IMG/VR virus record: IMGVR_UViG_3300048589_000270
Span: 1-38,123 of that record
Origin: a virus
DNA: 38,123 nt
Reading direction: 5' to 3' (one strand)
The notes beneath the pieces are model-generated. The model ran no database searches and was not told the DNA's origin. It was given only the letters and a program-made list of their open reading frames with translations. Below, piece by piece: positions 10,036 to 36,250 of the stretch (within the stretch, counting starts at the first letter, position 1; each line of letters starts with the position of its first letter). The position numbers and the translations under genes were made by a program.

Positions 10036-10214
10036 TGCTGCCCCGCTGGTATCGCCCGCCTGCTCCCATCGATCCTGAGAATGCTTGGGACGACTATGCC
10101 CGCCTTTGCCGCGAGCAGGCCAAGGCCCCCGAGACATATGACCACCTGACCAAGAAGGGCGAGCGTATCCGTGCGTGGCGGCGCTTCAAGGAAGCATTTG
10201 AGGCTGCCGCGTGA
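10035..10214 (+). CDS. Hypothetical small protein
   Basis: The 59-residue product starts MLPRWYRPPAPIDPENAWDD. It is helical and basic with an Ala-rich end (RRFKEAFEAAA). The start overlaps the preceding stop (TGATG), and the stop overlaps the GTG of the helicase gene by 4 bp. It is probably a small accessory to replication, by position only. No family was recognised. Confidence 0.65.
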   Translation: MLPRWYRPPAPIDPENAWDDYARLCREQAKAPETYDHLTKKGERIRAWRRFKEAFEAAA

Positions 10215-11575
10215 ACGCTGAAATAAAACTTCCCCGGAATGTGGAGGCCGAAGCCGCCCTTCTGGGCGCGATGATGGTCGAGAACAAGGTGATCGACAGC
10301 GTTGCCGATGCCGTCTTGCCGACCGACTTCTTTGAGCCGCTGCACGGTCGCATGTTCGACGCCATCGTCTCGCTGTTCGGGCAGGGCAAAACGGTCAACC
10401 CAGTCACCATGAAGCCTCTGTTCGACAATGACGAGGCGATGAAGGCGCTTGGCGGCGTTGGCTATATGGCCAAGCTGACCGAAAGCAGCGCCGGCCTGAT
10501 CGGCGCCCGAGACTTTGCGGCCCAGATCAAGGAAATGGCCGATCGGCGCCGGATACTGACCGCGTTGGAAGAGGCGCGCGAAGCGGCGATCGACACGGCA
10601 ACGCCGATGGCCTCCCTGTCATCCATCGTCGAACAGGTCGTCGAGGTCAGCGGAACCGATAAGGGCGCGACAGAGGTCGGGCTTGGTCAAGGTGCCGCTA
10701 TGCTCTTCGCCGCGCATAAGCGTGGAGGCGGGATCGGATGCCGGGATATTCGGTGCCTCGATAAACTGGTGTCCGGCCTCAAGCCCGAACAAATGATGGT
10801 AGTCGCCGGAAGGCCAGGTATGGGCAAGACCGCCGTCGCCGTGTCCTACGGCATGGGGGTCGCCTCCCAGAATATCGGCGTCCTTTTCATCAGCAAGGAA
10901 ATGTCGTCGGCCGAACTGACCGGACGGTGCCTGTCCGATCGCATGTTCAGCCGAAACCCGATCCTCTACGAGCGCATCGCAAATGGCTGGATGAACGACG
11001 ACGAGCAACGGCGCATCGAGGCCCTGTCCGAAGAACTGAGCCGCCTGCCCTTCCAGATCGTCGACAGCGCGCGTGTGACGCCCGCGCGGGTCAACACATG
11101 GGTCAGGCGATGGAAGCGCCGCTTCAAGGCTCAGGGCATCGAACTAGGGCTGGTCGTGATCGACTATCTCCAGCTCATGGACCCCGACAAGGATCAGGGC
11201 AGCCGATACGCGAACATCACCGACATATCGGGCAAGCTGAAGCAGATCGCCAAAGAGCATGGCGTGCCGATCATGGCGCTGGCCCAGCTTAGCCGGGAGA
11301 CTGAACGTCGGGACGACAAGAAGCCCAGGATCGCGGACCTGAAGGACACCGGCGCGATCGAGCAGGACGCCGACATGATCCTGCTTCTGCTCCGCGAGGA
11401 ATATTACCTCGAAGAGTCCCAGCCCGAAGAGACGCACCCCGATTTCATGAAGTGGGAAGAGGCCATGCGCCAGTGCGCGGGCCAGATCAAATTCATCATG
11501 GCGAAGAAGCGCGATGGGCGCACCGGGACTGCCGTCGGGCAATTCCACGGCAAGTTTCAGGCGGTGCGGGGATGA
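10211..11575 (+). CDS. dnaB: DnaB-like replicative helicase
   Basis: The 454-residue product has the two-part DnaB layout. The N-terminal helical domain (about residues 5-100) opens with LPRNVEAEAALLGAMM. The RecA-like motor has Walker A at 200-207 (GRPGMGKT), Walker B around Asp318 (VVIDYLQLMD), and a C-terminal AQLSRETERRDDKKPRIADL segment. It should unwind DNA ahead of the phage fork. Translation starts at GTG, overlapping the preceding gene. The next gene, a lambda-O-like initiator with a candidate origin, overlaps its stop by 4 bp, matching the initiator-loader-helicase clustering of lambdoid phages. No separate helicase loader gene was recognised. Confidence 0.93.
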   Translation: MNAEIKLPRNVEAEAALLGAMMVENKVIDSVADAVLPTDFFEPLHGRMFDAIVSLFGQGKTVNPVTMKPLFDNDEAMKALGGVGYMAKLTESSAGLIGARDFAAQIKEMADRRRILTALEEAREAAIDTATPMASLSSIVEQVVEVSGTDKGATEVGLGQGAAMLFAAHKRGGGIGCRDIRCLDKLVSGLKPEQMMVVAGRPGMGKTAVAVSYGMGVASQNIGVLFISKEMSSAELTGRCLSDRMFSRNPILYERIANGWMNDDEQRRIEALSEELSRLPFQIVDSARVTPARVNTWVRRWKRRFKAQGIELGLVVIDYLQLMDPDKDQGSRYANITDISGKLKQIAKEHGVPIMALAQLSRETERRDDKKPRIADLKDTGAIEQDADMILLLLREEYYLEESQPEETHPDFMKWEEAMRQCAGQIKFIMAKKRDGRTGTAVGQFHGKFQAVRG

Positions 11576-12366
11576 GTGATGATGGCTGGTTCAAGGTCGC
11601 GCGCGGATGGCGCAATCATCCTCTCTTCGGGGAGGATCCTTTGTCGAAGGGCGAAGCGTGGCTGTGGCTCATCGAAAATGCCTGTCACACGCCCCGGAAG
11701 TTCGACGCGCTCGGCACCATCATCACCGTCGAGAGGGGCCAGCTTGCCACGTCAGTTCGCAGGCTCGCCGAAGCATGGAAGTGGTCGAAGTCGAGCGTCG
11801 ACCGATTTCTTGCCCGTTTGAAAACCGGGACAGGAGACGGGCCAATGATCGGGACAGAGGTCGGGACAGGCCAAATGGTTATAACAATCTGTAATTACGA
11901 GAAATATCAGGGAGGGCGAAAAAGCGCTGGGACACCCGCCGGGACAGAGGCTGGGACACCATCTGGGACACTTCTGGGACAGGAGCGGGACACAAATAAA
12001 GAAGGAAATAATTCCGTTCCTAACGGAACGGGCGCCGAAGCGCCGAGCGCGATTGACCTGAAAGCCATGGTCTTCGCCAGCGGACGCCAGATCCTCAAAG
12101 CCAGCGGCCATAGCGACCGCGAGGCTGGTTCGATCTTGGGCCGAATGCGCAAAACCCATACGGATGCGGTCATTCTCGACGTGCTGGCCCGATGCGAGGC
12201 TGAGCGCCCCGAGGTGCCGCTGGAATGGATACAGGCCGCCTTGAGCCGAACCCGCGCCGATGGCGCCGCTTCTCGCCAGGGTAGCTTTTTCAACAATAAT
12301 CGCGGTTCGGACCGTCCGTTTTACGAGGTCGTGGCCGAGCGCAGCAAATCCGGAGCAAGCGCATGA
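11572..12366 (+). CDS. Replication initiator-like protein (lambda O-type, winged helix)
   Basis: The 264-residue product has an N-terminal winged helix typical of phage initiators (KVARGWRNHPLFGED, SKGEAWLWLIENACH, then VRRLAEAWKWSKSSVDRFLA). A low-complexity middle of Gly-Thr repeats (GTPAGTEAGTPSGT) is encoded by the iteron array. A helical C-terminal part follows (AMVFASGRQILKASGHSDRE). By analogy with lambda O, the N-terminus should bind the iterons inside its own gene while the C-terminus recruits the helicase. Start and stop overlap neighbouring genes. Identification rests on domain style and on the embedded array. Confidence 0.82.
   Translation: MSDDGWFKVARGWRNHPLFGEDPLSKGEAWLWLIENACHTPRKFDALGTIITVERGQLATSVRRLAEAWKWSKSSVDRFLARLKTGTGDGPMIGTEVGTGQMVITICNYEKYQGGRKSAGTPAGTEAGTPSGTLLGQERDTNKEGNNSVPNGTGAEAPSAIDLKAMVFASGRQILKASGHSDREAGSILGRMRKTHTDAVILDVLARCEAERPEVPLEWIQAALSRTRADGAASRQGSFFNNNRGSDRPFYEVVAERSKSGASA
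11827..12028 (+). other. Candidate replication origin: GGGACA iterons, AT-rich DNA, dyad
   Basis: Nine GGGACA copies begin at 11827, 11851, 11863, 11929, 11941, 11953, 11965, 11976 and 11987, giving spacings of 24, 12, 66, 12, 12, 12, 11 and 11. An AT-rich stretch lies between the two groups (about 11871-11910) and another follows the array (about 11993-12012). A perfect dyad TTCCGTT-CCT-AACGGAA ends it (12012-12028). The last two copies keep the hexamer although the 11-bp spacing puts them in other reading frames, so the DNA motif itself appears conserved. Confidence 0.7.
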
Positions 12367-30100: not shown

Positions 30101-31477
30101 GTCACTGGCCAGAAGACGGCGCAGAAGCAGATGAAGGAATCTGTCGAGGTCCTCGGCAAGAAAGTATTCAAGGACTCTTGGGAAGGAATTTCCGAGAAGT
30201 TCGGGAAGGCGATGCGCGGAGCGGCGATCGGCGAGGCAGTTTCCGGCACGCTGAAGTCTCTCGGCATCAAGCAGTCCAAGACCGGCGCCCAGATCGGCGG
30301 CGCAATCGGTTCGTTCCTGAAAAAAATCCCCGGCGGCGAAATCATCGGCTCGGTCATCGGCGGCACGATAGGCGGCCTGTTCAAGAAGACCCCCAAGGGC
30401 AGCGCCACCATCACCGGCGCCGACAGCGACGCCGTCTATGCCGGAAGCGGTAGCCTGCGCGGCGCGGTCACCGGGCTTGCCAGCGGGGTCCAGTCGTCGC
30501 TGAACCGCATCGCCGACGCGCTCAACGCCGATCTGGGGTCGTTCGCGGTGTCGATCGGCCAGCGCAAGAAGAACTTCGTCGTCGATCCGACGGGTAGCGG
30601 CCGGACCAAGGGCAGCGGCGTCCTCAGCTTCAAGTCCGAGGAAGAGGCGATCGCCGCGGCATTGCGCGACGCGATCCGCGACGGCGCGCTGAGGGGCATC
30701 CGCGAGGGCGCGCAGCGGCTGGTCTCGCAGGGCCAGGACATCGAGGCCCAATTGCAGAAGGCGGTCGATTTCCAGTCGGTGTTCGACCGGCTGAAAGCCT
30801 ATGACGACCCGATCGGTGCCGCCCTCGACGGCCTCGATCGCGAGTTCCAGCGCTATCACAAGATCTTCGGCGAGGCGGCGGCGACCAGCACCGACTATCT
30901 CGAACTCGAACGACTCTATCATATCGAGCGCGAGAAGCTGATCAGCGAGGCGACCGATAAGCTGACCGGCAGCCTCAAGTCGCTCCGCGAGCAGCTCTCC
31001 ATCGGCGACATGGGGCTTTCGCTGCGCGACCGCCGCGACGCCGCGCTCGACGTCTACCAGCCGCTCGCCGAACGCGTCGCGGCCGGGGACACCACCGCCT
31101 ATGACGATTATGCGAACGCGTCGATGTCGTTGCTCGAACTCCAGCGCGAGATCCACGGCTCGCAGAAAGGTTATTTCGACCTCTTCAACTCGGTCAAGGA
31201 CCTGACGAACGCCGCGATCAACAGCCAGACCGCGCTGGCCAGTGCATCCGCCAACCGCGACGCCTTCCCGTTCCGCAACGCCTCGGCAATCCCGTCCAAC
31301 GACAATGCGCAGGTCGTCGGCGCGATCGAGAAGCTCGGCACCTTCATCGTCAATGAGCTTGGCATGTCGCTGTTCGCGGTCAACAAGAACCTCGGCACGC
31401 TGATACAGCAGGGCGAGACGAAACCGACGCCCCCCGAATCGGTAAAGCTCTATCTCAAGAACGGGGAGAGCTGGTGA
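27173..31477 (+). CDS. Tape measure protein with embedded M15-type peptidase
   Basis: The 1434-residue product sets tail length. The N-terminal half is coiled-coil with a hydrophobic segment (ATVLSGPWGVALAAGSFLLG). At about residues 570-650 lies an M15/LAS zinc peptidase signature: SxHxxGxAxD as Ser582-His584-Gly587-Asp591, then HxH at His643-His645. This domain could cut cell-wall peptide bridges during DNA entry. The second half has further coiled coils and Gly-rich membrane-like stretches (GGAIGSFLKKIPGGEIIGSV). The start has AAGAAGG upstream. The length would correspond to a tail of roughly 200 nm by the usual rule. Confidence 0.93.
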   Translation: MTDGSAFPIFLKAELDDSAGAFAEFKQRVSNASGEAVASFTRDFKQIGEVIGNALGKGVGPGKLDLDVGQFRQAAAQAKLFAVAMQETERAAQKLARETGDNSAETRQFINAMGMSARTMGAAHREAEALATTYGRLQREIRNSADASGDLARAQREVMQAQYADAARAEKFQNAINRQVAPGLSLNRAHHPENGATYGELARLARAADEYDRQLAELRQQLDPLAIAQARVNQELEFANQAFRKGDITAAQLETRTQQLNGAMTRLQGGFRGNRQAMIMTGQQLQDITISMVSGQRAGTVLAQQLPQLALAMSTFGGRVGAVATVLSGPWGVALAAGSFLLGNLVDSLRESESATDNARKANYNFTKALNFNRMSVLEYRDAIDQLNEATKRYIDLQAIQLDGEFLNAKKAVTLAEKKLSAADRAIQIGGPAGDIARMYRPGIVEELDKARKSLSDTTIGLQKRAIEETIDRAQGVQGALERQLARLEANRSDSQSAEYLQGPARGYAIHQLGDRYVSKSDFDRQYTDLRRRIDANRDANRNQGSTTSRDARVGDMTALLQQLIPGVRITSTTGGRHAKGSDHYAGRAIDFVVPGMMNAAGTAEIRRMLEEAGVEIRRNARGTEQFFGPGRGAKTPNDHADHFHLAWKGSPSPESAQRAAERAARAQEQLNRLLDESSETVLRMREQFDRAPRDIDRAEAAVRKLNDEIAQADAQLKAGGLTDEQRAVVEATKARAEDTRASVIPDYLRRPMTNELGSLEREIEMQDLLLQSRQAQHDSMRDAYDLARLLGAESLDELGTQLHKRKISEAEVDAYFDKLNLLRLQNIELERQRERQQVLLGVVEDVESAARGAIADVFDGKGVAAAGNLMKSVFAAHKRAMAEDLFTSIFGDAFKNQKLQILGLDQVDESGREAAKAMARAAAANDNLASNADNAAKALRGLADAANDNSGTPGVPGTTGTVTTVNLSAESQEIVVTGQKTAQKQMKESVEVLGKKVFKDSWEGISEKFGKAMRGAAIGEAVSGTLKSLGIKQSKTGAQIGGAIGSFLKKIPGGEIIGSVIGGTIGGLFKKTPKGSATITGADSDAVYAGSGSLRGAVTGLASGVQSSLNRIADALNADLGSFAVSIGQRKKNFVVDPTGSGRTKGSGVLSFKSEEEAIAAALRDAIRDGALRGIREGAQRLVSQGQDIEAQLQKAVDFQSVFDRLKAYDDPIGAALDGLDREFQRYHKIFGEAAATSTDYLELERLYHIEREKLISEATDKLTGSLKSLREQLSIGDMGLSLRDRRDAALDVYQPLAERVAAGDTTAYDDYANASMSLLELQREIHGSQKGYFDLFNSVKDLTNAAINSQTALASASANRDAFPFRNASAIPSNDNAQVVGAIEKLGTFIVNELGMSLFAVNKNLGTLIQQGETKPTPPESVKLYLKNGESW

Positions 31478-34400
31478 TGACCGGCTGCCTCGTCAGGATC
31501 TCGCCGCTCGATCCCGAGACCGGCAACCGCGTCGACGTCTATCTCTCCTCCTTCGGTCATCGCGCCGACGCGGCGGCGAACGGCCTCGACGGCAGGGTCT
31601 GGGAGCCCGCGATCACGCAGCGCCCGACGCTGGCGATGACCGCGTGGAACGGCGATTTCACCGCCGCGATCGAGCCGGGCGCGGCGACGCTGCCGGTCAA
31701 TCTCGAAATCGCCGCGCAGACATGGCCGAACATCGGCCGATATGGCTGGACGGGCGCCCCGATCGCGATCTTCGGCGGCAAGCCTGGCGACGCATGGCCG
31801 TGGGAGACATTGTTCGCCGGGCGCGTGCGCAGCTATTCGGGGACATATCCGCGCCTCTCTTTGCAGGCGCAGGTCGACACCGAGCCGTTCGACGCCGACG
31901 TCCTCACCGCGCGCTATGCCGGGACCGGCGGGGCGGAAGGCGGGGACGACATAAAAAACCGGCTGAAACCGCTCGTCGTCGGCTGGGCGAAGAGCGTCGA
32001 GCCGGTGCTGGTCGACGCCGTGAACGACGTCTGGCAGTTCTCGGGGCACGGGCCGATCGAGGCGGTGACGACGCTTTACGAGCGCGCCTCGGCGTTCGGC
32101 GCGTCGGACGGTGACCACGCCGATTATGCCGCGCTGGTTGCCGCATCGATCGCGCCGGGCCATTGGGCGACCTGCCTTGCCGGGGGAATGATCCGGCTCG
32201 GCGCCCCGGCCTACGGCGTCATCACCGGCGACATAAGGGGCCACAAGACCGGGGCATCGACCCCGCGCCTGACCGGGGCGGTGATCGCCCTGCTCGCCGA
32301 TATCGCCGATATCGACCCTGCGCTCATCGTGGATTCGACGCTGACGGCCCTTAACGCCGCCGTGCCTTACCCGATCAACATCGTCCTCTCCGATCAGGTG
32401 AGCTTCATCGATATCGCCCGTCGGCTGGCACTGGCGTGCAACTGGCAGGCCGGTGTCTCACTGACCGGCAAATTCTTCGGCGCCGGGGTGAGTCTTGCGG
32501 GACCCCCTGCTCTCACGCTTGACGCGCAGGGGAAGGCCTCGCCGCAGGTTCTCCAGTCGGAAGAACTGCATGTCAGCCCGCCTTATTCGAGCACCATCCT
32601 CGGGGCCGACAGGTGCTGGCGCACGCATACGGCAAGCGAAATCGCCTATGTCGAGGGACTCACCGGCTATCTCACCCATCCCTCGCATAGTGTGGCCGCC
32701 GATCCCGACGGGAACGTCTCCGATTTCACCGGGGTAGGCGGCAGCTTCATCGTCGAGCGTGACGGATCTCCCCTTACCACGGGCGTCGTCTTCTCGGTCG
32801 CGTCGGAAGCCGGGGTCGACGTCGACATCGATGCCGATACCGGCGAATATTCGGTGCTGGGGATGGCGCCGGGCGGACAGGGCATCGCCGTGTTCAAGGC
32901 GGTGCTGGGCGCGGAGACGCTGTTCGCGGGCTATTCGATCAGCAAGAGCGTGGCCGGGGCGACGGCGAAGGCCTTTGCCATCAAGGGCGGGGGAAACTTC
33001 CGTTACAATTCCGCCGGTGCGATCTATGCGGGCCAGTCGGTAGCGCTGACGCTCGACCGGCAGAACATGACCGATGATTTCGTGGTCAGGCTGCGCCGGA
33101 TCAACGCCAACGGCACGACGACCCAGATCGACGCCGGGACCTATCTGACCGGATCGGGCAGCGTCACCGACAATGTGCCCGATGCGCTGAGCTTCACCCA
33201 GACGGGCACGACGGTGACGCTTACGGGCACCAATTTCAATACGCTGATCAGCACGGGGCTCGGCTGCATCGTCGAGGTGACGTGCGGCGCCATCACCGAT
33301 TCGACGCGGATGCTGAAGGTGCAGGACGGGGCTGTCGGCGACGCGGGCGATCCCGGTCTGTCGGTCGCGGAACTGACCATCTATCGCCGGTCGGCGTCCA
33401 CCCCGGCGACGCCGATCGGCGGGCTGTTCGATTTCGACACGCAGACGCTGACCCCGCCCGCGCTCTGGTCGGTCGCGATCCCGGCGATCAACGGCGATCC
33501 GCTCTACACCTCGAAAGGCGGGGTTGCGATCAGCGGCGCAAGCGGGTCGGCGACGCCGGGCTGGGGCGCGCCGGTCCTCTCGCTGAAGGATGCCGAGGCG
33601 GTGAACGTCGTGTTCCGGCGTCTGGCCACCCAGCCGTCCACTCCCTCACCGTCATCGGGCATACCGGCAAGCTGGTCCGCAACGCCGCCCGGCGGCGCCG
33701 ATCCGCTCTGGGCCACTTATGGTTCGCGCCCCTCACCCGCCGTCAACTGGACGTGGGGGACGCCCGCGCGTGTGGAAGGCCCGGAGGGCGATCCCGGTCT
33801 GTCGGTCGCGGAACTGACCATCTATCGCCGCGCGTCCTCCACCCCGGCGACGCCATCGGGCGGCACCTATAATTTCTCGACCAAGGTGCTGAGCGGGGTG
33901 ATGGGGTGGACGACGGCCATCCCCGCCCCGAACGGCGACCCGCTCTATGCGGCGCGGGGCACGGCAGCGCTTCCCGGCACGACCGGCACCACGACGCCGA
34001 CATGGGCGGCGCCGACCAAGGTGCTGGAGGATGCGGCATCGTCGATGGTGATCTTCATGCGCTTCGCGACGCAGCCATCGGCGCCGGGGCCGTCGCCGGG
34101 GGTGCCGACCCTCTGGTCGGCCACGCCCCCCGCGCCGAACGGCCATCCCCTGTGGGTGTCCTACGGCGGACGCCCCTCACCCGCCGTCAACTGGACGTGG
34201 GGGACGCCCGCGCGTGTGGAAGGCCCGGAGGGGGCGCCCGCCGTCTCGATCACGGTCACGCGCAAGTCGGTGACCCTGCTCGGCTACGCCAACGGCAATG
34301 TGATCAGCTTCGCCGAAGCGAACGGACATCTCACCGTCCATGCGGGGGGCGCCGACGTCACCGCATCGGCGACGCTGTCGGCGACCGCGAACGGCTGCAC

Positions 34401-35550
34401 AGGCACGATCAACACCTCGACGAACAATCCCGTGGGCAGTCAGCCCAAGGGCTATTACCGGATCACCGCCATGTCGCAGAGCGTCGCGACGCTGACGCTT
34501 CAGGCGGTCTACAACGGCACGACCTATACCGAGATCGTCACCTTCACGCGCTCTGACGTCGGATACGAGATCGTCGGCTCGCTGCCGGGAACCAATCTGT
34601 TCGAGGGCCGGGTCGTGTTCCTGACCACCGACGACAAGCTCTATCGCTACACCGGATCGGCATGGGTGGCCTCGGTGGCGGCGGGCGACGTCACCGGGCA
34701 ATTGACGAACGCCCAGATCGCCGACATCGCGGCGGCGAAGCTGACGGGCCAGATCGCCACGACGCAGATCGCGGACAATGCGATCAGCACCCCCAAGCTC
34801 GCGGCGGGGTCGGTGTCGACGAACAAGCTGGCGGCGAACGCGGTGACGGCCAACGAACTCGCCGCGAACGCCGTGACGACGCCGAAACTGGCGGCGGGCG
34901 CGGTGACGGCCAATGAGATCGCCGCCAACGCGGTGACGGCCAACAAGATCGACGCCGGGGCGGTCACGGCGTCGAAGCTCGCCGCGACCAACGTCATCAC
35001 CGCCTCCGCCCAGATCGGCGACGGCATCATCACCAACGCCAAGATCGGCAACCTCGAAGTCGACAGCGCCAAGATCGCCAACCTGACGGTCGGCACCGAG
35101 AAGATCGCCAACAGCGCGGTGTCGAACACGGTCGTGACCCAGCTCACCGGCACCGCCAACTATAACGAGGGCACGGTCTACGACGTCGTGGACCGGACGA
35201 TCACCACGACCGGCGGCAAGGTGCTGCTCAATGCGATGCTGTCGCTCATGTTCAAGGCCGGCGTTCACACGGGCTACGGCGGCGCCCCGGCGGGCTTTGC
35301 GACGCTGGTGATGAACTTCAATTTCTATCGCGGCGCTTCGCTGATGGCGACGCTGGGCGCCCATTATGTGATGGTTCCCCAGAACTGCCTCTACTCCATC
35401 CCGCTGTCCTTCTCATGGGTCGATGATCCGTCGGCGGGGACATACAACTACCGGCTGACGGCCGAGGCGGTGGCAGCGGCCGACTGGAACGGCGCCAACA
35501 CATGGTCGCGGACGCTGGCGCATATGTCCGCGACGGAACTCAAGAAATAG
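31477..35550 (+). CDS. Very large tail-tip / central fibre protein with repeats
   Basis: The 1357-residue product starts at ATG 31477 (TGATG overlap; a GTG at 31474 is adjacent). The N-terminal 400 or so residues are a mixed alpha/beta baseplate-like domain (LVRISPLDPETGNRVDVYLS onward). From about residue 620 come two near-identical beta modules, then a beta region, then seven decapeptide repeats (AANAVTANEL-like) and a C-terminal head (VLLNAMLSLMFKAGVHTGYG). This mix of hub, modular stalk and repeat shaft suggests a central fibre combining tip and adhesion functions. No lambda L, K or I homolog lies between it and the tape measure gene. Confidence 0.88.
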   Translation: MTGCLVRISPLDPETGNRVDVYLSSFGHRADAAANGLDGRVWEPAITQRPTLAMTAWNGDFTAAIEPGAATLPVNLEIAAQTWPNIGRYGWTGAPIAIFGGKPGDAWPWETLFAGRVRSYSGTYPRLSLQAQVDTEPFDADVLTARYAGTGGAEGGDDIKNRLKPLVVGWAKSVEPVLVDAVNDVWQFSGHGPIEAVTTLYERASAFGASDGDHADYAALVAASIAPGHWATCLAGGMIRLGAPAYGVITGDIRGHKTGASTPRLTGAVIALLADIADIDPALIVDSTLTALNAAVPYPINIVLSDQVSFIDIARRLALACNWQAGVSLTGKFFGAGVSLAGPPALTLDAQGKASPQVLQSEELHVSPPYSSTILGADRCWRTHTASEIAYVEGLTGYLTHPSHSVAADPDGNVSDFTGVGGSFIVERDGSPLTTGVVFSVASEAGVDVDIDADTGEYSVLGMAPGGQGIAVFKAVLGAETLFAGYSISKSVAGATAKAFAIKGGGNFRYNSAGAIYAGQSVALTLDRQNMTDDFVVRLRRINANGTTTQIDAGTYLTGSGSVTDNVPDALSFTQTGTTVTLTGTNFNTLISTGLGCIVEVTCGAITDSTRMLKVQDGAVGDAGDPGLSVAELTIYRRSASTPATPIGGLFDFDTQTLTPPALWSVAIPAINGDPLYTSKGGVAISGASGSATPGWGAPVLSLKDAEAVNVVFRRLATQPSTPSPSSGIPASWSATPPGGADPLWATYGSRPSPAVNWTWGTPARVEGPEGDPGLSVAELTIYRRASSTPATPSGGTYNFSTKVLSGVMGWTTAIPAPNGDPLYAARGTAALPGTTGTTTPTWAAPTKVLEDAASSMVIFMRFATQPSAPGPSPGVPTLWSATPPAPNGHPLWVSYGGRPSPAVNWTWGTPARVEGPEGAPAVSITVTRKSVTLLGYANGNVISFAEANGHLTVHAGGADVTASATLSATANGCTGTINTSTNNPVGSQPKGYYRITAMSQSVATLTLQAVYNGTTYTEIVTFTRSDVGYEIVGSLPGTNLFEGRVVFLTTDDKLYRYTGSAWVASVAAGDVTGQLTNAQIADIAAAKLTGQIATTQIADNAISTPKLAAGSVSTNKLAANAVTANELAANAVTTPKLAAGAVTANEIAANAVTANKIDAGAVTASKLAATNVITASAQIGDGIITNAKIGNLEVDSAKIANLTVGTEKIANSAVSNTVVTQLTGTANYNEGTVYDVVDRTITTTGGKVLLNAMLSLMFKAGVHTGYGGAPAGFATLVMNFNFYRGASLMATLGAHYVMVPQNCLYSIPLSFSWVDDPSAGTYNYRLTAEAVAAADWNGANTWSRTLAHMSATELKK
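33345..34232 (+). repeat. Tandem duplication inside the tail fibre gene
   Basis: Two tandem units of about 441-444 bp. Identical blocks are 45 bp at 33345-33389 and 33786-33830, and 62 bp at 33727-33788 and 34171-34232. Each unit encodes a beta module starting GLSVAELTIYRR and ending SPAVNWTWGTPARVEGPEG. The inner parts have diverged. Confidence 0.88.
34771..34980 (+). repeat. Seven 30-bp (decapeptide) repeats in the fibre shaft
   Basis: The reading frame holds ADNAISTPKL, AAGSVSTNKL, AANAVTANEL, AANAVTTPKL, AAGAVTANEI, AANAVTANKI and DAGAVTASKL in a row, an exact 10-residue period. Such repeats usually form a trimeric beta-helix shaft. Copy number may vary between relatives. Confidence 0.88.
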
Positions 35551-35558
35551 AGGCGAAT

Positions 35559-35915
35559 ATGACACCCAAGACCTACCCGATCCGCCGCCGGGGCACCTAT
35601 GCATTCCTGCTCGCCTCGAAGCCCGGCGACAGCTTCGCCGCGACCTGCCGGGGCGACCTGCGCAAGCTCGACCCCGGCAAGAGCGAAGTGAATCCCGACG
35701 CCACGGTCGCCGCCGCGTTCACGGTCAGCGACTTCGCCGGCGACGACAAGCGCGGACCCGGTTTCTACCTGACGCTGGCCGACGATGCGACCGCCGGGCT
35801 GGAAGCGGGCGCGCGCTATCTGGCCGATGCGATCTATACCGTCAGCGGCGAGGATTACGTCGCGGGGTCGTGGATTATCGAGGTGCATGAGCCCGCGACG
35901 GTGGCGCTGCCGTGA
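35559..35915 (+). CDS. Hypothetical virion-associated protein
   Basis: The 118-residue beta-rich product starts MTPKTYPIRRRGTYAFLLAS. It carries elements such as GPGFYLTLADDATAGLEAGA and an end EVHEPATVALP, a pattern seen in small tail-associated proteins near fibre genes. There is no membrane or signal segment. The stop overlaps the next GTG by 4 bp. Function is unknown. Confidence 0.7.
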   Translation: MTPKTYPIRRRGTYAFLLASKPGDSFAATCRGDLRKLDPGKSEVNPDATVAAAFTVSDFAGDDKRGPGFYLTLADDATAGLEAGARYLADAIYTVSGEDYVAGSWIIEVHEPATVALP

Positions 35916-36250
35916 TCGCCTTCACGCTCCGGCTGGAACCGCCGCCCATCGTTTTCGACCTCTACGGCCCCGACGACGAACTGATCCAGAAAGCCTTCTC
36001 GGCGCCGGGCGCGCATATTGCCGCGGTGATCGGGCCACCGGGCGCAAGCGGGGAAGGCCCGCCGCTGCTCCACATGCAGGGCAGCGCATCGGCGGAATGG
36101 ATCGTCAACCACAACAAGGGCTTCCATCCCCTGATCACGGTGCTGGGGCCGGGCGGGGGCGAGGTCTTCGCGCAGGTCCTGCACGTCAGCGTCAATCAGG
36201 CGCGCATCTATTTCAGCGAGCCGCAGACCGGCTCGGCATTAGTGAGGTGA
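35912..36250 (+). CDS. Tail fibre-like protein, small
   Basis: The 112-residue product starts at GTG 35912. The C-terminal segment (ASAEWIVNHNKGFHPLITVL then GGEVFAQVLHVSVNQARIYF) is a widespread fibre-tip beta domain with the WxVNHN-G turn. The N-terminus is Pro-rich. It is likely an accessory fibre part or fibre cap. It is followed 6 bp later by another fibre gene that carries a related C-terminal domain. Confidence 0.7.
   Translation: MIAFTLRLEPPPIVFDLYGPDDELIQKAFSAPGAHIAAVIGPPGASGEGPPLLHMQGSASAEWIVNHNKGFHPLITVLGPGGGEVFAQVLHVSVNQARIYFSEPQTGSALVR

Follow-up and report, generated by a model that had tools for sequence, protein, structure and literature searches.

We analysed a 38,123-base stretch of viral DNA (hereafter, the window) in which the gene for a DnaB-type replicative helicase is followed by that of a replication initiator, the end of the former and the start of the latter overlapping by 4 bp. 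The initiator gene contains two clusters of short direct repeats (iterons), two AT-rich stretches and a hairpin. The features are arranged as follows.

10211-11575, plus strand: DnaB-type replicative helicase gene (Pfam DnaB_C, 3e-67; DnaB, 8e-21)
11572-12366, plus strand: initiator (replisome organizer) gene, 264 aa, assigned using PHROG, tblastn, AlphaFold and Foldseek
11788-11826, plus strand: codons of the recognition helix (residues 73-85), from predicted secondary structure and covariation
11827-11868, plus strand: 5' iteron cluster, with GGGACA at 11827, 11851 and 11863 and a degenerate GGGCCA at 11839
11874-11915, no strand assigned: first AT-rich stretch (67% AT), between the clusters, which also encodes a conserved ITICNYEKYQ strand
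11929-11992, plus strand: 3' iteron cluster, six GGGACA spaced by 12, 12, 12, 11 and 11 bp, which encodes a disordered linker
11994-12023, no strand assigned: second AT-rich stretch (73% AT), purine-rich on the plus strand, the proposed unwinding element
12014-12031, no strand assigned: hairpin CCGTTCC-TAAC-GGAACGG, a perfect 7-bp dyad with the loop C(GTTA)G on the minus strand

The first iteron (11827) follows the recognition-helix codons without a gap. In the AlphaFold model, the initiator comprises a winged-helix domain (residues ~1-113), a disordered linker (~114-160) and a helical C-terminal domain (163-239). The protein matched PHROG 35955 (4e-32) and PHROG 2514 (9e-17), and these matches span residues 3-155 only. 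The PHROG name, DnaD-like helicase loader, was rejected for this protein, which had no match to the DnaD/DnaB_2 C-terminal Pfam domain. Beside the initiator gene, we identified the adjacent DnaB gene and no separate helicase loader gene; among 301 related loci, a DnaB homolog lay upstream of the initiator gene in 29 and downstream in 21. Gene 38 of Bacillus phage SPP1 was detected as a homolog of the DNA-binding domain (tblastn, 5e-11). Further, Foldseek matched the model to other phage replisome organizers and to a lambda-O-type domain, which is consistent with a role as an origin initiator. Sequence and fold searches of the PDB with the initiator returned no confident relative, only generic winged helices.

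GGGACA occurs nine times within the gene, always on the plus strand, starting at 11827, 11851, 11863, 11929, 11941, 11953, 11965, 11976 and 11987. The successive spacings are 24, 12, 66, 12, 12, 12, 11 and 11 bp, and the copies therefore form two clusters, of three and six copies with a 66-bp step between them. The sequence-only reading had the nine copies right, but the array, given there an 11-12 bp period, is in fact bipartite and not evenly spaced. The skipped 24-bp place in the 5' cluster is filled at 11839 by GGGCCA, which has one mismatch. It had also been proposed that all sites lie on one face of the DNA, and this holds approximately: steps of 11 and 12 bp correspond to rotations of about +17 and +51 degrees at 10.5 bp per turn, so that the sites follow a gentle spiral and not exactly one face. 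We did not count the 11-bp phasing of the 66-bp gap as evidence, since the length of this gap is fixed by the conserved protein strand that it encodes.

Across the whole window, GGGACA was not over-represented (19 copies vs. 16.9 expected); for nine copies in 166 bp on one strand, the expectation was approximately 0.04. Elsewhere in the window, 30/60-bp tandem repeats are present at 34811-35112, at the end of the gene at 31474-35550, which probably encodes a repetitive virion protein.

Seven of the nine GGGACA copies are read as Gly-Thr, and within each cluster the steps between these copies are multiples of 12 bp. The repeats might accordingly exist for the protein, as a Gly-Thr-rich linker that arose by tandem duplication and whose codons are identical because the copies are young. 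However, the eighth (11976) and ninth (11987) copies occupy the two other reading frames (the six copies of the 3' cluster lie in frames 0, 0, 0, 0, 2 and 1), as had been noticed from the sequence, and these copies continue at 11-bp steps. Moreover, the spacers between the hexamers differ, and the linker is predicted to be disordered. When the codons of the gene were permuted 5000 times with the protein and codon usage fixed, the mean number of GGGACA per gene was 1.9 and the maximum was 7, compared with the 9 observed, so that permutation failed to yield the array. The linker Gly-Thr pairs were written as GGG-ACA in 7/7 cases, compared with 2/43 in other genes and approximately 1% expected from codon usage.

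We then considered relatives of the gene, drawn from viral contigs, genome contigs and phage records (523 genes, 301 of them non-redundant at 80% identity). For each linker, the most repeated hexamer was compared with codon permutations at the 5% level. The hexamer was in excess in 186 of 299 linkers (mean 5.5 copies vs. 3.3 in permutations); among the first 160 genes, 120 beat the permutation, whereas only 4 of 160 neighboring control ORFs did so. These results bear out the earlier suggestion that selection acts on the DNA. Approximately 38% of the relatives, including SPP1, had no significant exact-hexamer array; the SPP1 copies are degenerate and hence non-significant, indicating that the exact-hexamer test is not sensitive.

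In the relatives, nearly all iteron spacings were 11 or 12 bp or multiples of these, the frames were mixed and the iterons lay on the coding strand. Sulfitobacter phage pCB2047-A, a culturable relative, has 8 GGGACA copies. The hexamer varied by lineage (CGGGACA, CGACGCA, CGAGACA, CGATACA, CCGGACA, CGCGACA, CGGTACA and rarer forms), and the learned iteron core was C-G-N-N-N-C-A, about 7 bp. The peptides encoded by the linkers included Gly-Gln, Glu-Thr, Asp-Thr and others. Across homologs, then, the encoded peptide varies, but an array of hexamers persists at the corresponding position, again in mixed frames; this is the reverse of a conserved Gly-Thr peptide lying over a changing hexamer. The hexamer itself is not universal among the homologs and differs with the recognition helix. 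On the strength of the codon permutation and the mixed frames we rejected the protein-level reading of the repeats, which we consider hardly credible.

A pattern scan for GGGACA triplets returned at least 120 loci, and among the matches listed an initiator family gene was present in 13 and array-bearing ORFs outside the family in 51 of 120. Arrays of the latter kind, with 10-11 bp spacing and mixed frames, were found for example in L115, L141, L068, L071, L087 and L042. In several of these ORFs the array is preceded by a basic, RKRRQRA-like stretch and the C-terminal part is of a different kind. The ORFs may represent other initiator families with a similar iteron. Five further loci (L039, L058, L086, L091 and L132) contain long GGGACA arrays with a strict 12-bp period in a single frame (e.g., VWDSVRDSVGDS); these are ordinary coding repeats, in contrast to the origin arrays.

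The initiator of SPP1, G38P, has nanomolar affinity for the direct repeats of oriL, which lie inside gene 38 next to an AT-rich unwinding element (PMC6316719); both the binding and the function as an origin have been demonstrated experimentally in SPP1. In SPP1 gene 38, we found AA[AC]GACA at an exact 11-bp period (genome positions 35871-35992). A single copy precedes the conserved V-I-x-I-x-N-Y strand and five follow it, the last of which, AACGGATA, is degenerate. These repeats fall within the cloned oriL fragment (35801-36151; PMC5615212). The phage analysed here and SPP1 oriL have in common a homologous winged helix, iterons in the same linker approximately 11 bp apart, AT-rich DNA after the last copy and a helicase gene close by. 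They differ in the iteron (CGGGACA here, AA[AC]GACA in SPP1) and in the C-terminal part of the protein. Further, SPP1 possesses a separate loader gene, 39, and a second origin, oriR; no second array was seen in the linear 38,123-base record, which is possibly partial.

The homology to G38P and the matching array support the proposal that a putative origin resides inside the initiator gene. The same two observations, namely sequence homology and an 11-bp array in the same place as in oriL, identify it as SPP1-type and not lambda-type as had been proposed. Lambda O shares only the DNA-binding fold (a lambda-O-type protein matched the N-terminal fold of the initiator over 78 residues with 1.8 A rmsd) and the position of the origin within the initiator gene, where direct repeats are followed by an AT-rich stretch. 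Membership in the lambda O family was rejected, as there was no Pfam lambda O match and the iterons are too short; the repeat unit, with its 11-12 bp spacing and ~7-bp core, is indeed shorter than the 18-bp iterons of lambda, as had been pointed out. We therefore keep lambda as a fold-level or functional analogy. In addition, the present phage has its own DnaB helicase gene; lambda relies on the host DnaB together with its P loader.

The annotation of Staphylococcus phage 80alpha places an origin within its replisome organizer gene, ORF20, at 235-460, which is nearly the same offset, and deletion of this gene is not complemented in trans (PMC5499656). The N-terminal domain of ORF20 is of another sequence type and its repeats differ; by eye, its C-terminal part alone resembles SPP1 G38P. 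On the evidence of its sequence, direct homology of ORF20 to the DNA-binding domain was rejected. An origin inside the initiator gene is a known kind (SPP1, 80alpha and lambda), and the present one, probably a further member of the SPP1 oriL kind, is ordinary in itself and is accompanied by an additional, conserved hairpin.

The two AT-rich stretches already recognized in the sequence (67% and 73% AT) stand out from the genome (37% AT), in which just 0.03% of stretches are equally AT-rich. When the relatives were aligned on the last iteron, AT content peaked between the clusters (+18%) and approximately 20 bp after the last copy (+23%), although the former peak may partly reflect the conserved ITICNYEKYQ peptide. 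The AT-rich element adjoins the repeats, as in the SPP1 oriL type, a likeness of composition in which unwinding is putative.

To relate the initiator to its iterons, we calculated mutual information between protein columns and iteron bases in 161 genes with a clear motif. Columns 94-101 headed the raw list, but they are themselves encoded by the 5' iterons and score high trivially; we left them out to avoid circularity. Apart from such iteron-encoded columns, the top columns were 73, 74 and 77, with which the predicted recognition helix (residues 73-85) begins; the codons of these three residues belong to no iteron. Distance between helices at these residues was correlated with distance between iteron cores (partial r = 0.39 with the rest of the domain corrected for, compared with 0.05 in the reverse case, for the rest of the domain), a value reached by none of 500 random triples of variable columns. 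When the exact core was predicted from neighbors with <50% identity, the helix residues succeeded in 49%, the rest of the domain in 19% and random choice in 15%; related sequences are not independent, and this identity cap and the column-triple controls address kinship only partly.

At iteron base 4, K73 was found with G in 64/69 genes, E73 with C in 21/27 and D73 with C in 6/7, where the motif registers were aligned by a likelihood procedure and single assignments may be one base off. The initiator of this phage possesses K73, S74 and D77, a set that goes with GGGACA in 27/28 genes. As the helix changes, the iterons in the same gene change, suggesting that each gene records the DNA that its product binds. 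The search of the open-access literature returned no description of this correspondence or of the hairpin, and both appear to be undescribed in the literature searched.

The terminal dyad reported earlier is present and perfect, and it extends to 12031, beyond the end at 12028 originally given. It is the sole C(TAAC/TAAA)G hairpin within the window. In the relatives, tetraloop hairpins occurred at 4.1 per kb beyond the second AT-rich stretch vs. 0.37 per kb elsewhere, and hairpins with loops of 5 or more were not enriched in this zone. The loops conformed to T-N-N-C/A in 49/58 hairpins in the zone vs. 27/312 elsewhere (p = 3e-32). C(TAAC/TAAA)G hairpins reached 2.26 per kb in the zone vs. 0.0024 per kb outside it in these loci (~900-fold), and the reverse orientation was never seen. 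All four Watson-Crick pair types were used at stem positions 2-6, the stems differed between phages, and the residue encoded by the loop codon was variable. Since pairing was the criterion by which stems were identified, covariation is proved not by the pair counts alone but by the enrichment over control DNA.

In the family, the hairpin is located approximately 25-60 bp past the last iteron, behind the purine-rich AT stretch. Of the 301 relatives, only 69 show it clearly. Loci L194, L025, L088, L158 and L381 are among the clearest, with perfect arms of 9-10 bp that enclose a TAAC or similar loop downstream of the last iteron. Unlike the phage analysed here, SPP1 showed no C(TNNC)G hairpin.

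Loops of the form T-N-N-C/A on the top strand read G/T-N-N-A on the lower strand, closed by C-G, and these lower-strand loops resemble the compact DNA tetraloop motif c(GNNA)g. In imperfect stems, A.C mismatches exceeded G.T mismatches on the top strand (14 vs. 4), which slightly favors the lower strand and argues against mRNA. We tentatively suggest that the hairpin acts on the lower strand.

The hairpin, as distinct from the iterons, might instead act in plus-strand mRNA through a stable UNAC-type loop and affect translation, pausing or transcript stability. UAAC is a known RNA tetraloop type, and the transcribed hairpin would also form in RNA (-12.0 kcal/mol). However, the loop set fits the DNA motif, the excess of A.C over G.T is the reverse of that given by G.U wobble in mRNA, the Rfam search with the hairpin returned only sub-threshold chance hits, and the position just past the AT-rich stretch suits a part of an origin. 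An action in RNA is therefore rather unlikely in our view, while a functional single-strand DNA element is a serious possibility that we place a little below even.

Region 11827-12031 is, very probably, a theta-type replication origin located inside the gene of its own initiator and bound by the product of that gene. This assignment draws on what can be read from the sequences, namely the array, selection at the DNA level, the layout matching that of oriL, the covariation of helix and iterons, the AT peaks and the recurrence of the hairpin. The array could alternatively be an operator through which the winged-helix protein represses its own gene, with replication starting elsewhere. The domain is a generic winged helix whose weak structural neighbors are mostly transcription regulators, and iterons often have a second, autoregulatory role. 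However, the arrays of the relatives lie deep inside the gene, beside AT-rich DNA and often a hairpin, the characterized relative G38P is an origin-binding protein, and a DnaB helicase gene adjoins. We therefore regard a purely regulatory array as improbable.

For the origin, we infer the following course of binding, melting and helicase recruitment, modelled on SPP1. The winged-helix domain would bind the CGGGACA iterons head-to-tail, one protomer per 11-12 bp, through K73, S74 and D77 of the recognition helix. The array of protein and DNA thus formed would open the AT-rich, purine-rich stretch that directly follows the last iteron. The DnaB-type helicase, whose gene lies immediately upstream and overlaps that of the initiator, would then be recruited by the C-terminal domain or by a partner protein. 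The hairpin beyond the melted stretch would fold upon strand separation, most likely on the lower strand, and might help to fix the place or strand of helicase or primase loading. A joint reading, which we hold with slightly less than even confidence, is that the initiator genes are self-written records of specificity and that the strand-specific, single-strand hairpin has a selected fold and a stem sequence free to change, the fold being selected because it marks the place where helicase or primase is loaded.

Since one gene contains both the binding sites and the coding sequence of the protein recognizing them, a matched protein-site pair would be available from each of hundreds of uncultured phages. 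These pairs suggest readable rules for iteron base 4, such as G with K73 and C with E73 or D73, and the rules predict the effect of swapping a single helix residue. If this is true, the recognition code of this winged-helix family could be read from initiator genes. The hairpin is a concrete candidate for an element that acts after the strands open and before the helicase is loaded, a step that is poorly understood. It is the self-recorded specificity code and the hairpin, rather than the origin itself, that are of specialist interest. In phage genomes without annotation, the array also serves to locate the origin.

A minor observation concerns one of the loci, a contig of Pseudomonas phage PSV3 (OP712483; L010). 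Its initiator gene is near-identical to that of Staphylococcus phage PVL and the gene layout is the same, which suggests mislabelling or contamination.
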